A DNA stretch of 64,000 nt, taken from positions 1 through 64,000 of the forward strand of contig JAJYYK010000014.1 of NCBI GenBank assembly GCA_021801025.1. The letters run 5' to 3'. A program made the translations under genes and the position numbers. Under the pieces are notes generated by a model. That model saw nothing but the letters and a program-made list of their open reading frames with translations. It was not told where the DNA came from and did not search any database. Source of the DNA: Pseudomonadota bacterium (GTDB taxonomy: Bacteria; Pseudomonadota; Gammaproteobacteria; Burkholderiales; Sulfuriferulaceae). Below, one piece after another: positions 34,428-61,361 of the stretch (positions within the stretch are counted from its first letter, which is position 1; each line of letters starts with the position of its first letter).

Positions 34428-34518
34428 GGAGAGATGGATGAGTGGTTTAAGTCGCACGCCTGGAAAGCGTGTTCAGGATAATATCCTGACGGGGGTTCGA
34501 ATCCCCCTCTCTCCGCCA
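34428..34518 (+). tRNA. tRNA-Ser(GGA), integration site of the island
   Basis: A 91-nt cloverleaf with acceptor GGAGAGA/TCTCTCC, anticodon stem CACGC with loop CTGGAAA (anticodon GGA), a long variable arm (class II tRNA), T-arm and encoded CCA. The whole tRNA is intact. Its last 65 bp, from the base just before the anticodon stem, are repeated exactly at 57917-57981. Confidence 0.97.
34454..34518 (+). repeat. Left attachment-site repeat (inside tRNA-Ser)
   Basis: 65 bp identical to 57917-57981. Identity begins one base before the anticodon stem and ends at the CCA, consistent with crossover in the anticodon arm. Confidence 0.95.
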
Positions 34519-56796: not shown

Positions 56797-57810
56797 TTAT
56801 CTGGGGACTGTTGCCAACTTCTCAGCCAGTTTTTCAGCTTGCAAATGCGTGTAGCGTTTCAGCATCTGCAAAGTTTTATGGCCGGAAACTGCCGCCAGCT
56901 CCAGCACAGTCATGTCGCCCCGTTCAGCCAACCGGGAAAGTGCCTCGTGACGCAAATCATGCCAGGTGAAATTCTCTATGCCTGCGCGCCTGCATGCAGC
57001 TTGAAAAGCATGAAAGAGGGTCATGCGTTCGACCGGAATGACTGCTCCGCTGATGGATGTAGGTAGTTTTTCAAGCACGGCAAGCGCTGCTGGTGAAAGT
57101 GGAACTGCGCGCACTTCGCCATTTTTTGTATCTTCAAGAAGAGCAAAGCGTCTTTTTGCATCAACTGTTTTCCAGCTTAATCCAAGCAGTTCACCTTGGC
57201 GCATGCCTGTTTCCACCGCCATCTGCACAGCAGGCCAAAGATAAATGTTTCGACTATGACGGCACTCAATTTTCAGATTTTGCCATTCTTCGTCATTTAG
57301 GCGGCGATCACGTGATTTGCTCTCTGTTGGTTTGCGGATTTTATCAACAGGGTTTCCTCTTGGTAAGGTAATTGCGCATTCCGTTTCGGTAAATTTTAAA
57401 ACTTTCGAGAGCATGAACAATTCTTTCCGAACTGTGCTGCTGCCAACCAAGGTAAGTCTTTTATCCCGATACTGCGCGACCAGCTTCTGATCCAGTGCAG
57501 CAAGAGAAAATTGACCAAGCGCTTTTTTTAAATGGGCACATTGAAATCGCCAAGCCTCTTTCCCATCTTTGCGCAACTTGTAATGAAATGGGGCGAACTC
57601 GGTGGTGAAGCGGTCGATCATGTCGCCAACGGTGTTGCGTTCGGCATCGCTACGATCAACAAATACACCGCGCCCCATTTCACTTTCTATGGTTGCGGCC
57701 CAGAGGTCTGCATCTGAACGGGTGTTGAAGGTTTTAGATTGAGGCGGGTAGCCTTTTCTGCGTACTTGGGCTTCCCACTGATAATCACCCCGCTTGCGGA
57801 TTGTTGGCAT
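56797..57810 (-). CDS. int: Tyrosine recombinase integrase of the island
   Basis: A 337-residue phage-type integrase. N-terminal arm-binding/SAM-like part (MPTIRKRGDYQWEAQVRRKG, with RSDADLWAATIESEMGRG), then the catalytic domain: R in GMRQGELLGLSW, H-D-L-R-H-E-A, GHKTLQMLKRYTHL with the nucleophile Tyr. GGGGAG supports the start at 57810. Repeats TGTGGCAA occur just upstream (57831-57850) and at the opposite end. The gene is 107 bp from attR and reads away from it. It should catalyse insertion into tRNA-Ser. Confidence 0.93.
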   Translation of the reverse strand: MPTIRKRGDYQWEAQVRRKGYPPQSKTFNTRSDADLWAATIESEMGRGVFVDRSDAERNTVGDMIDRFTTEFAPFHYKLRKDGKEAWRFQCAHLKKALGQFSLAALDQKLVAQYRDKRLTLVGSSTVRKELFMLSKVLKFTETECAITLPRGNPVDKIRKPTESKSRDRRLNDEEWQNLKIECRHSRNIYLWPAVQMAVETGMRQGELLGLSWKTVDAKRRFALLEDTKNGEVRAVPLSPAALAVLEKLPTSISGAVIPVERMTLFHAFQAACRRAGIENFTWHDLRHEALSRLAERGDMTVLELAAVSGHKTLQMLKRYTHLQAEKLAEKLATVPR

Positions 57811-57830
57811 GCTGAACTCCCCTGAATCAT

Positions 57831-57850
57831 TGTGGCAAAAGTGTGGCAAT
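57831..57850. promoter_or_regulatory. Two TGTGGCAA repeats upstream of int, possible arm sites
   Basis: TGTGGCAAAA at 57831-57840 and TGTGGCAAT at 57842-57850. Same motif as at 34582-34617 near the other border. Confidence 0.55.
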
Positions 57851-57916: not shown

Positions 57917-57981
57917 GCACGCCTGGAAAGCGTGTTCAGGATAATATCCTGACGGGGGTTCGAATCCCCCTCTCTCCGCCA
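57917..57981 (+). repeat. Right attachment-site repeat (attR)
   Basis: 65 bp identical to 34454-34518: tRNA-Ser from just before the anticodon stem to CCA. Without the 5' half, it is not a tRNA gene. Confidence 0.95.
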
Positions 57982-58219: not shown

Positions 58220-58397
58220 TCAATCAAGTTTCAGGTCTTCAAGGTCTAGTTGTGGCAATACAAGATTAAAGTCTATGTGTTCCATTTCAGCGAACATGCG
58301 ATTCATCAATTCATCTTCAATCGGCTTTAGGCCAGCGTCTAACGACGATCTGGCACGGCTTACGATGATTTCCAGTGTTGCCGTTGGCGAGGTTATT
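58220..58397 (-). pseudogene. 3' remnant of an unknown gene, cut by the short transposon-like element
   Basis: Reading the minus strand gives a coherent C-terminus, including FAEMEHIDFNLVLPQ and LEDLKLD, then TGA at 58220-58222. Going upstream, the frame hits a stop exactly where the 187-bp element begins (58399). The family is not recognised. Confidence 0.45.
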
Positions 58398-58398
58398 G

Positions 58399-58585
58399 GG
58401 GGTCAGTTCTAACATTACTACAAACCCGGCTATAATCTACCCATGGCGCAGGCGTACCTGTTTGGCGCATATACTATGGTAAAGACCAGGCAACATTTCA
58501 ACGTACATTACATGACAATAAGCTGCGTGGTGCGAAAATTAGAAGGAAATAAAAAAGATGATGTTTGAATGTTAGAACTGACCCC
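58399..58585 (+). mobile_element. 187-bp internal-deletion derivative of the transposase unit
   Basis: Starts with GGGGTCAGTTCTAACATT and ends with its reverse complement, as does the full copy at 60411-61326. Its 5' and 3' parts align with that copy, and the middle is missing. The lost length is 729 bp. In the full copy, CCATGGC occurs at 60453-60459 and 61182-61188, exactly 729 bp apart, so a deletion between these repeats accounts for the size. Point differences show it is not recent. Confidence 0.9.
58443..58568 (+). CDS. 41-residue ORF, HTH tail of the transposase
   Basis: From ATG at 58443 to TGA at 58568. It keeps the TATAAT-like context and start codon position of the full transposase gene but encodes only the C-terminal HTH (MAQAYLFGAYTMVKT, then VHYMTISCVVRKLEGN). 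A short HTH peptide could bind the element ends; expression is not shown. Confidence 0.45.
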   Translation: MAQAYLFGAYTMVKTRQHFNVHYMTISCVVRKLEGNKKDDV

Positions 58586-58678
58586 TTTTAGTGCCCTCTT
58601 TATTCTGAGAATTAAAGCCTAATAATAGTCTGTTAGTAGCAATATATTGCTTATAATAGACCAAATATAGGATATAAA

Positions 58679-58707
58679 TTGACAAAAATAATCTGTTGGG
58701 CTACTAT
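58679..58707 (+). promoter_or_regulatory. Probable hipBA promoter and operator area
   Basis: TTGACA at 58679-58684, 17 bp, TACTAT at 58702-58707. Repeats containing AATAATAG or TAATAGCC occur before and after it (from about 58620 to 58750), consistent with HipB operators. A second TATAAT lies nearer the start at about 58733. Confidence 0.55.
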
Positions 58708-58754
58708 TAATACACTATTTGTAATTTTATCGTATAATAGCCTATTATTAGCCT

Positions 58755-59099
58755 ATGACTATCCAGCACCTAACCAATACCGAAATCGCGATGCGCCTGG
58801 CGCAGAAAGTCCATGACTGGCGTATCTCACCTGAAGGCGCGGGGATTTCCCAAGTAGAGCTCGCGCGTAAAAGCGGAATTGGCCTGACGCCACTCAAGCG
58901 CTTTGAAAAAACGGGGGCGATCACCTTGCGCAACCTGATAGCAGTACTGCGTGCACTCGACTTGCTGGACGGGTTGGATGCCCTTATTCCAGAACTTGGC
59001 GCCCCGGGGCCGTTGGCGCTACTGGAAGCTGAACGAACAAAAATTCGGCGGGTGCGCGCGCCGCGTAGCACTTCAGGCAAAGGAGCGCTGCATGGCTGA
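58755..59099 (+). CDS. hipB: HipB-type antitoxin, XRE-family regulator
   Basis: A 114-residue protein with an XRE HTH at about 30-60 (ISQVELARKSGIGLTPLKRFEKTG). The C-terminal part is longer than in E. coli HipB and basic at the end (IRRVRAPRSTSGKG). It overlaps hipA by 8 nt. HipB binds HipA and represses the operon through repeated operators, for which the TAATAG-rich upstream region is a candidate. Confidence 0.85.
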   Translation: MTIQHLTNTEIAMRLAQKVHDWRISPEGAGISQVELARKSGIGLTPLKRFEKTGAITLRNLIAVLRALDLLDGLDALIPELGAPGPLALLEAERTKIRRVRAPRSTSGKGALHG

Positions 59100-60384
59100 A
59101 ATCAAGGTTGTCGAAGTAAAAATATGGGATCAGTCCGTGGGCGCTGTCGCGCCGTTACGGGGCAAGCCCGGATTCTATGAATTCCAATATCTGCCCGCCT
59201 TTGTAAAATCAGGGCTGGAGCTCTCCCCTCTGCTGATGAAGTTGTCAATTAAAAAACGATTCAGCTTCCCTTTGCTGAGTAGAGAAACATTCCACGGCTT
59301 ACCGGGTATGCTGGCCGATGCATTACCAGACAAATTCGGCAACGCGCTGATCGATGAGTACCTTGTCCGTACGGGTACAAAGGCCACCGATATTACGACG
59401 CTGCAGCGCATGGTGTACGTCGGTCGTCGTGCAATGGGCGCGCTGGAATTCGCGTCGGCCGACGACGATATACGGAGTCCTGGGGTGGCAGTACCTCTTG
59501 AAATGTCAAGCTTGGTGGAAGACGCACGGCGCGCGCTGCGCGGAGAGTTCGGTGCTATTGCACAGGATATCCTCGACGTTGGTAGTTCAGCAGGCGGCGC
59601 CCGCGCCAAAGCGGTTATCGGTTGGAATCCGGACACCCGGGCCGTCGTTTCCGGTCAATTCAAGGTGCCCGATGGCTATGACCACTGGCTACTTAAATTT
59701 GATGTTGGTCTTGATGGGGTATTAAATTATGCGACCGGCTTTGGCCGTATCGAGTATGCGCACTACCTGATGGCTACTGAAGCTGGCGTCCACATGAGCG
59801 AGTGCCGGCTACTGGAGGAAAATGGCCGGGCGCACTTCATGACCAAACGCTTTGATCGGCGCGGCAATCAGAAACTGCACGCCCAGAGTCTCTGTGGCCT
59901 GACACACCTGGATTTTAATATTCCCGCTACCCACAGCTATGAGCAGTACTTGCGCACAGTACTGGAACTGAACCTCGGTGCTCAGGCACTAGAGCAAGCC
60001 TGGATCCGCTGCGCGTTCAACATTGCCGCCGTTAACTGCGACGATCATACCAAGAATCTCGCCTTTTTGCTGAATCCCGAATCCGGCTGGAGCCTGGCCC
60101 CCGCCTACGATGTCTGCTTTTCGCACAACCCGGCTGCTGGCAAATGGACCCGGCAGCATCAAATGCTGGTTGGTGGGAAAGCATGGGGGATCACCGATAT
60201 TGACCTCATAGCGCTCGCGCAAAAATTTGACGTTCGACAACCGCAAGTACTGCTGCAGCGCATTGCTGACGCAGTAGCCCGATGGCCCGAATTCGCGCGC
60301 AATGCTGGCGTCACCCCAGAGGCAACTGAGCGTATTCAGTCATATCACCCCGACTGGTTATCACCCCGCATCACAGGCGGTTAG
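59092..60384 (+). CDS. hipA: HipA-type serine/threonine kinase toxin
   Basis: A 430-residue HipA. N-subdomain 1 (about 1-110), ATP-binding loop GSSAGGARAKAVI near 164-176, catalytic motif NCDDHTKN with base D317 and N322, and the metal-binding PAYDVCF motif. HipA phosphorylates glutamyl-tRNA synthetase (or another target) and causes growth arrest. All kinase motifs look intact. AAAGGAG upstream of the ATG at 59092 supports the start. The operon lies between two related transposase elements. Confidence 0.92.
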   Translation: MAEIKVVEVKIWDQSVGAVAPLRGKPGFYEFQYLPAFVKSGLELSPLLMKLSIKKRFSFPLLSRETFHGLPGMLADALPDKFGNALIDEYLVRTGTKATDITTLQRMVYVGRRAMGALEFASADDDIRSPGVAVPLEMSSLVEDARRALRGEFGAIAQDILDVGSSAGGARAKAVIGWNPDTRAVVSGQFKVPDGYDHWLLKFDVGLDGVLNYATGFGRIEYAHYLMATEAGVHMSECRLLEENGRAHFMTKRFDRRGNQKLHAQSLCGLTHLDFNIPATHSYEQYLRTVLELNLGAQALEQAWIRCAFNIAAVNCDDHTKNLAFLLNPESGWSLAPAYDVCFSHNPAAGKWTRQHQMLVGGKAWGITDIDLIALAQKFDVRQPQVLLQRIADAVARWPEFARNAGVTPEATERIQSYHPDWLSPRITGG

Positions 60385-60410
60385 CCAACCACACTCTGTT
60401 ATGTATTTAG

Positions 60411-61326
60411 GGGGTCAGTTCTAACATTACTACAAACCCTGCTATAATCCGCCCATGGCCAGACCACTCAGACTAGAATTTGCAGGCGCACTTTATCATG
60501 TCACTTCGCGCGGTGATCGTCAGGAAGATATATTTCTGAACGACGATGATCGCAACGATTGGTTGACGGTGTTGGGCATCGTTTGCGCACGGTTCAACTG
60601 GGTGGTCCATGCATTATGTCAGATGACCAATCACTATCACCTATTGGTGGAAACACCGGATGGCAATCTATCTGGCGGGATGAGGCAATTAAATGGCTCG
60701 TATACTCAGCGCGTTAACCGTCGTCATGGTTTGGGTGGACATCTTTTTCAGGGGCGTTACAAAGCCATTTTGGTACAAAAAGAAAGCCATTTACTCGAAT
60801 TGTCGCGCTATATCGTACTGAACCCGTTGCGTGCCAACATGGTGGAATCGCTCGAAGATTGGCGCTGGAGCAGCTATGCATTGATGACCAGCCAAACGGC
60901 GCCACCACCTTGGCTGGATACGGACTGGTTGCTCGGTCAATTTGGTTCGCAACGAGACCAGGCGCTCATGCACTATCGCCAGTTTGTGCTGGCGGGCAGG
61001 AATTTGCCCAGCCCGTTATCGAATACTCGTCATCAGCTGTTGCTGGGCGACTCCGCTTTTACCGAGCGTCACAAAGGGGCAAAAGACGCTGAAGAATTAC
61101 GGGAAGTGTCAAAAGCACACCGGAGATCGCTTGCCTTGTCTCTGGATGAATTTCAGATCCATTACCCGGATAGAAATCAGTCCATGGCGCAAGCATACCT
61201 GTCTGGCGCATATACCATGACAGAGATCGGACGTCATTTCGGCGTACACTACATGACAGTAAGCCGCGTGGTGCGGAAATTTGAAGCAAATAAAAAAGAT
61301 ACTGTTTGAATGTTAGAACTGACCCC
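60411..61326 (+). mobile_element. Complete REP-associated transposase unit with 18-bp inverted ends
   Basis: 916 bp bounded by GGGGTCAGTTCTAACATT and its reverse complement at 61309-61326. It contains one transposase gene (60455-61309). The terminal repeats are those of the short copy at 58399-58585. Tandem CTAGAACT units follow its right end. Confidence 0.9.
60455..61309 (+). CDS. REP-associated tyrosine transposase (RAYT, Y1 family)
   Basis: A 284-residue Y1 transposase. HUH motif in MTNHYHLLVE, catalytic Tyr in GSYTQRVN, then GHLFQGRYKAILVQ; the N-terminus ARPLRLEFAGALYHVTSRG is typical. The C-terminal 40 residues form a HTH-like region. RAYTs are single-strand transposases of the IS200/IS605 type that act on REP-like hairpins; here the gene is also inside inverted terminal repeats. 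The start follows a TATAAT-like sequence at 60443-60448, 6 bp before the ATG. The gene looks intact. Confidence 0.92.
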   Translation: MARPLRLEFAGALYHVTSRGDRQEDIFLNDDDRNDWLTVLGIVCARFNWVVHALCQMTNHYHLLVETPDGNLSGGMRQLNGSYTQRVNRRHGLGGHLFQGRYKAILVQKESHLLELSRYIVLNPLRANMVESLEDWRWSSYALMTSQTAPPPWLDTDWLLGQFGSQRDQALMHYRQFVLAGRNLPSPLSNTRHQLLLGDSAFTERHKGAKDAEELREVSKAHRRSLALSLDEFQIHYPDRNQSMAQAYLSGAYTMTEIGRHFGVHYMTVSRVVRKFEANKKDTV

Positions 61327-61361
61327 CTAGAACTCCTAGAACTCCTAGAACTCTAGAACTG
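61327..61361 (+). repeat. Four tandem CTAGAACT units after the transposase
   Basis: Units of 9, 9, 8 and 9 bp. They resemble the TTAGAACTG part of the element's end, so slippage or repeated end processing could have made them. Confidence 0.75.

Follow-up and report, generated by a model that had tools for sequence, protein, structure and literature searches.

RAYT-type transposases are widespread, and their effect for or on their hosts is poorly understood. The described systems closest to the one studied here are the TIRtrons, whose transposases (TIRYTs) lie between terminal inverted repeats (TIRs) with the consensus GGGGWSAS, as stated in the account of the element class by Di Nocera 2013 (PMC3733652); the section of Quentin 2018 (PMC6006769) on this group equates TIRYT with TnpA_Y1 subclass 2.1 and with RAYT group 1 of Bertels 2017. 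Here we analyse 64,000 nucleotides of a Sulfuriferulaceae genome (GCA_021801025.1, contig JAJYYK010000014.1, positions 1 to 64,000 of the forward strand; "the window"), in which an apparently intact hipBA toxin-antitoxin (TA) operon lies exactly between a full TIRtron and a 187-bp miniature of such an element. A preliminary description of this locus read it as the formation of a miniature by deletion; that reading holds, and the association of TIRs with TA modules reported here goes beyond its single-locus view. We think it likely that the intact TIRtron and the old miniature around hipBA are one case of a wider pattern in the genus, in which unrelated families of type II TA module would have solo TIRs, hairpin-forming REPIN-like TIR pairs, miniatures or full TIRYT elements as immediate neighbours, with gain, loss or replacement of TA modules at TIR sites.

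TIRs lie beside toxin-antitoxin modules

The 18-bp TIR of the window's elements, GGGGTCAGTTCTAACATT, occurs nine times at ≤2 mismatches in the whole 2.38-Mb genome (reversed control, 0). The TIRs are intergenic and low in copy number, with 9 sites for this TIR and 25 for both TIR families of the genome together. All six of the TIR clusters inspected here carry a type II TA module (6/6, a count that leaves out the 69-bp pair at C5:708 and a match with one mismatch on C12, both minor sites). These modules are hipBA in the window; on contig C10, phd-relE with a TIR on either side, the two facing the same way, and a PIN remnant in addition; on C17, hicAB flanked by a TIR and a transposase remnant; phd/yoeB beside a TIR on C18; on C5, MNT-HEPN with a miniature on one side and a TIR pair on the other (identified by eye, the HEPN partner having no Pfam match); and parDE between a transposase-end remnant and a second full TIRYT element on C15, which is the layout of hipBA.

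The same tendency is found across eight congeneric genomes. Pfam searches of 79 small open reading frames (ORFs) ≤800 bp from a TIR recover PIN (5), ParE (5), Phd (4), YoeB (2) and MazE (2), with NTase/HEPN-type, HicB, BrnT, BrnA and more besides; as a control, 400 kb taken from elsewhere yielded 221 small ORFs, with one ParE-like toxin among the families listed, which are the 25 commonest, with single-member families partly left out, so that the control counts are lower bounds. Genome-wide positions of ParE/PIN toxins provide a test that is independent of this sampling of ORFs: against a null model of random position, 8 of 71 clusters fall ≤700 bp from a TIR of subfamily TIR-A (0.31 expected, P = 1.6e-9) and 10 of 71 ≤700 bp from TIR-A or TIR-B (0.42 expected, P = 3e-11). 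Separately, at G007:C20 77-bp direct repeats that start near a TIR (L055 1992, 4396) bracket a 2.4-kb HEPN/MNT + PIN block.

Outside the genus, the 99 ORFs ≤1 kb from TIRYT genes include PemK (3), PIN (3), Phd (3), MazE (2), HigB (1) and ParE (1), and the 125 ORFs 3-6 kb away include YoeB (1) and PSK_trans_fac (1) among the families listed. A phd-vapC pair stands ~35 bp before the left end of a TIRYT element in Tepidiphilus, and parDE ~70 bp before such an end in Thiococcus. Arrays of ~10 or more mostly same-facing TIR copies were also seen near TIRYT genes of other species (L102 4116-4852, L136 6932-9002).

TA modules change at TIR sites between close relatives

Comparison with the closest relative, G009 (~91% DNA identity in shared regions), reveals that the TA module has been replaced at an orthologous site. 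The post-porin site holds TIR/phd-relE/TIR and a PIN remnant in the window's genome (C10), and the orthologous site of G009 (C46) holds a hairpin pair of the other TIR subfamily, a CopG-like gene with ParE, and then a degenerate TIR. Conversely, the same TA cassette is found in different TIR surroundings: the 668-bp parDE cassette is 91.5% identical in G009 and lies there at a different locus, between two same-facing GGGGTCAGGTCTTGCCTTTTGCTTCC repeats of the other subfamily, the second of which belongs to a hairpin pair. Where C5 has a 0.6-kb TIR cluster, G009 has ~90 bp instead, and synteny between the two genomes ends 19 bp before the TIR at C5:12727 and 68 bp before the TIR at C15:64669. 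The breakpoints (L204 3533 and 6981 vs C15:64601 and C5:12708) flank two copies of the same miniature, which suggests rearrangement by recombination between the copies. In G009:C24, three same-facing TIRs have between them a phd-vapC pair and the gene of a PrlF antitoxin.

At the hipBA site itself, the G009 contig begins inside the transposase element, whose 3' end is present and 84% identical; HipA has no match in G009 at E < 1e-60. In this orthologous transposase end (G009:C88, L024/L204 1-163), a different CATGGC repeat is the site of a small deletion, and because the deletion shifts the frame, the G009 copy is probably dead.

What could join TIRs to TA modules

From the association and the turnover we infer a causal part for the TIRs. 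They could be same-strand recognition sites for a Y1 transposase, with the intervening DNA moved as a single-stranded circle, or they could serve as short homologies for recombination. Several points weigh against such a role. TIR orientation is not always direct, since hipBA and the genome's own parDE both stand between oppositely facing ends; no insertion of a TA+TIR unit with an exactly matching empty site was found in the genomes compared; and most TIR sites of G007 have no recognised TA gene. The statistics call for the same caution, as the control counts are lower bounds and the random-position null takes no account of TIRs and TA modules both lying in intergenic, flexible DNA.

One rival is that TIRs and TA modules share hot spots and nothing more, both accumulating at dispensable intergenic sites without either being the cause, which we hold possible but somewhat improbable. 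It is consistent with the intergenic position of the TIRs, with the genomic island that ends 0.4 kb left of the miniature, and with the different TA modules at the one site of C10 and G009:C46, as a hot spot would give. However, TA modules stand very close to TIRs, often at 23-110 bp, and TA matches are far fewer 3-6 kb from TIRYT genes than within 1 kb; by inspection of the same genomes, rve-type insertion sequences, another mobile class, have 1 of 47 matches ≤700 bp from a ParE/PIN toxin, and another at 1.2 kb. We are equally tentative about a strict transposition mechanism, in which TIRYT would cut a single strand at a pair of same-facing TIRs and move the TA module between them as a single-stranded circle. 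The direct orientation of TIRs around several TA modules and the occurrence of the same parDE in two TIR settings argue for it, as does the proposal of Nunvar 2010 (PMC2817692) that RAYTs, acting as dimers, cleave repetitive extragenic palindromic (REP) sequences that stand in direct repeat on the top strand, but no junction circle or exact empty site was seen in the genomes compared, single TIRs form no hairpin by themselves, and the G009 transposase copy is cut off by the contig end. The broadest form of this idea makes TIRYT (RAYT group 1) a dispersal system for TA modules, with same-facing solo TIRs bracketing cassettes that Y1 moves as single-stranded circles, giving TA arrays and exchange between species; we find it rather doubtful.

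Survival rather than transposition could also produce TA modules between repeats: direct TIRs would invite deletion, and segments bearing a TA module would persist because their loss is toxic. TA modules do lie between direct TIR copies at C10, C17, G007:C20, G009:C24 and G009:C42, the geometry that recombination would delete, but addiction alone does not account for one parDE in two species with unlike TIR surroundings, nor for hipBA and the own parDE between inverted ends, and we judge it unlikely. Least credible, to the point of being very improbable, is the proposal of the preliminary description that hipBA could move with both flanking elements as a composite transposon. The outer ends, 58399 and 61326, are indeed perfect inverted TIRs, but hipBA is single-copy in the genome, a search of 250 genomes of the order gave 12 HipA homologues, none of them with TIRs on both sides, the orthologous site of G009 has the transposase end without HipA, no target duplication was seen at the locus, and the unit was found neither at more than one site nor with an empty site. 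Plasmid relatives of the region were limited to distant HipA matches, and the left flank of the hipBA region had no match within the genus. As an aside, a distant HipA homologue from a different family of the order has a lone GGGGTCAGTTC motif ~1 kb upstream (L179 519, G025); the motif may be a TIR-like remnant.

That TIRs border TA modules at most of their sites in this genome suggests that the spread or persistence of TIRYT elements is coupled to that of toxin genes. If TA modules are indeed systematically associated with one class of RAYT, this would give RAYTs a concrete cargo or partner and would offer TA modules a route of spread on chromosomes without plasmids or phages; the association is testable and possibly important.

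The full element is a TIRtron

The preliminary description named a RAYT gene as the source of the miniature. The transposase is indeed a RAYT relative, but the ends of its element are GGGGWSAS-type TIRs and not REPs, and the element is therefore a TIRtron/TIRYT: GGGGTCAG stands at both ends within a perfect 18-bp TIR that fits the consensus, and single ends are non-palindromic, unlike the GTAG-tagged palindromic REPs of a strict RAYT (REPtron). In folding comparisons, TIR pairs gave strong hairpins (z -6.8 to -10.3), whereas single ends did no better than shuffled sequence. The sole gene of the element is that of the transposase; it begins 44 bp inside the left TIR and stops within the right one. 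The protein matches Y1_Tnp (PF01797, E 6.6e-12, 46.1 bits vs a cut-off of 23) and, at residues 244-279, the helix-turn-helix (HTH) family HTH_28 (PF13518, E 3.4e-5), the latter at 24.3 bits with the curated cut-off slightly higher at 25. The motifs NHYH and GSYTQR, candidates for the HUH and the catalytic tyrosine, were seen by eye in the sequence alone, and searches by sequence with two proteins, the transposase included, gave no relatives of solved structure. Relatives of the transposase were found at 80 loci, including Nitrotoga, Sulfurimicrobium, Accumulibacter, Duganella, Massilia and Thiococcus, and most of those in Beta- and Gammaproteobacteria are flanked by inverted GGGGTCA-type ends (GGGGTCAG type). 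Immediately outside the right TIR are 9-bp tandem units, TAGAACTCC (window 61321-61353); G009 has at this position a degenerate repeat of the TIR end, longer than here.

The miniature is an old deletion derivative

As first described, both elements begin with GGGGTCAGTTCTAACATT and end with its inverse, and their lengths of 916 and 187 bp differ by 729 bp, which is the spacing of two CCATGGC repeats in the full copy. The product of fusing the full copy at its CCATGGC repeats is exactly 187 bp long and shows no gap against the short copy; the alignment contains no extra sequence at the junction of the short copy, and the possible split points span exactly 7 bp. Because no foreign base is needed at the junction, the simplest explanation is deletion at the microhomology, and the reading frame is kept across it. 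The miniature and the joined full copy are identical at 162 of 187 positions (46/49 on the left, 116/138 on the right), and none of the 25 differences falls in the 36 TIR bases, all lying in the 151 interior bases (hypergeometric P = 0.003). An interior that has decayed between intact ends is what one would expect if only the ends matter.

Judging by these 25 differences, the miniature is not a recent derivative of the window's own full copy; on the simplest account it would be an old product of in-frame deletion between two CCATGGC repeats in such an element. At conserved positions of the HTH core (EIGRHFGVHYMTVSR), relatives agree with the full copy against the miniature, which indicates that the miniature drifted after the deletion. 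We considered whether the in-frame deletion had yielded a functional small HTH protein and rejected this, as 12 of the 17 changed codons in the residual ORF are nonsynonymous, with conserved HTH positions among them.

The short form was also said to be a clear case of how a miniature element is made. This stands as regards formation by deletion and not as regards mobility: the 187-bp form is decayed and present once in the genome, so its movement is not evidenced. Like a miniature inverted-repeat transposable element, it is short, has perfect TIRs, lacks functional coding and has an autonomous parent; multiple copies, the remaining mark of such elements, are found instead among the 265- and 258-bp miniatures of the genome's second TIRYT family. 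For the origin of non-autonomous elements, the 187-bp form is a clean, though expected, example.

The second family is the stronger miniature case, since its miniature form is present more than once. Its full element (C15:65843-66792, TIR GGGGTCAGGCCTTACATTTGACATT) lies ~2 kb past the window end. Its miniatures are 265 bp (C15:64669-64933), 258 bp (C5:12727-12984, with the same internal junction as the 265-bp copy) and 227 bp (C5:11616-11842, with a junction that differs from that pair) long, and a 69-bp hairpin pair lies at C5:708-776. The 265-bp miniature, the second TIRYT and parDE occupy C15:64669-67518 (L020 8670-11519), 0.7-3.5 kb past the window end. On C5, second-family miniatures and TIRs are nested around the MNT-HEPN pair (L051 11500-14035), and the left part of this arrangement is mostly absent in G009.

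hipBA and its surroundings

The features of the locus are collected in Table 1. The hipB and hipA genes overlap by 8 bp and form one operon, with HipA N- and C-terminal domains and an HTH antitoxin, as in other hipBA modules. To the left, a genomic island (window 34428-57981) extends from tRNA-Ser(gga) (34428-34518) to a 65-bp stretch that repeats the 3' part of the tRNA gene exactly, ends at 57981 and adjoins a tyrosine integrase gene (56797-57849, minus strand); this stretch, a putative attR, lies 0.4 kb left of the start of the miniature. The left TIR of the miniature seems to cut off a reading frame on the minus strand (window 58230-58398), leaving the C-terminal end, and the 58-aa remainder has no Pfam match.

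Table 1. Features of the hipBA locus, in window coordinates.
Feature	Position	Strand	Basis
Miniature (non-autonomous) TIR element, 187 bp, internal-deletion derivative of a TIRYT element	58399..58585	+	gapless alignment to full copy joined at CCATGGC
Miniature, left TIR, GGGGTCAGTTCTAACATT	58399..58416	+	repeat search
Miniature, right TIR, exact inverse of GGGGTCAGTTCTAACATT	58568..58585	-	repeat search
Deletion junction, 7-bp microhomology CCATGGC	58441..58447	+	alignment
Residual 41-codon in-frame ORF, decayed HTH remnant	58443..58568	+	translation, codon comparison, relatives
A+T-rich inverted repeats upstream of hipB, operator-like (predicted)	58607..58763	.	inverted repeats I1, I3
hipB-like antitoxin gene (HTH_3)	58755..59099	+	Pfam HTH_3 E 3.9e-4, slightly under cut-off
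hipA toxin (kinase) gene, full length	59092..60384	+	HipA_C E 7.7e-44, Couple_hipA E 3e-13
Full TIRYT element (Y1/RAYT group 1), 916 bp	60411..61326	+	TIRs, genome copy search, Pfam
Full element, left TIR, 18 bp, GGGGTCAGTTCTAACATT	60411..60428	+	repeat search
CCATGGC repeat 1, holds transposase start codon	60453..60459	+	
Transposase gene, 284 aa, Y1_Tnp domain and C-terminal HTH	60455..61309	+	Pfam
CCATGGC repeat 2, holds in-frame internal ATG	61182..61188	+	
Full element, right TIR, exact inverse of GGGGTCAGTTCTAACATT, overlaps stop codon	61309..61326	-	repeat search

Comparison with known systems

The element class and deletion-derived miniatures are already known kinds. The association of TIRYT with TA modules was not found in the openly licensed papers searched on TIRYT or on RAYT together with TA, the latter covered by titles and the beginnings of abstracts. 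The nearest precedent is an E. coli REPtron locus, cited in PMC6006769, where a TA operon takes the place of the Y1 transposase unit; it is a single locus of another subclass, and the passage that cites it claims no general association. The Tn3-derived TIMEs (PMC4133298) are likewise miniature elements, described there as generating mosaic non-autonomous transposons, but the family named in that description is Tn3, whereas ours derive from a Y1/HUH element. With REPINs and RAYTs (Bertels and Rainey 2011, PMC3116915; Nunvar 2010, PMC2817692) the locus shares paired inverted short repeats that form hairpins and stand inverted around a transposase gene; it differs in that its ends are not GTAG-tagged palindromic REPs and its copy number is low. 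The TIRtrons (PMC3733652) are the same in having a RAYT-like Y1 transposase between long TIRs that share GGGGWSAS and, in the paper's description of the class, further TIR copies as monomers, dimers and clusters; the TA link is missing there ("toxin" occurs 0 times in the paper), and that description of the class does not include deletion-derived miniatures. Finally, we assign the transposase to TnpA_Y1 subclass 2.1 by its domain and end repeats, not by placement in the tree of PMC6006769, whose account of the subclass gives it a C-terminal HTH_28-type extension and GGGG[AT][CG]A[CG] inverted repeats, as here; the same account reports no REP-like sequences near the genes, whereas in the present genus REPIN-like hairpin TIR pairs are dispersed.

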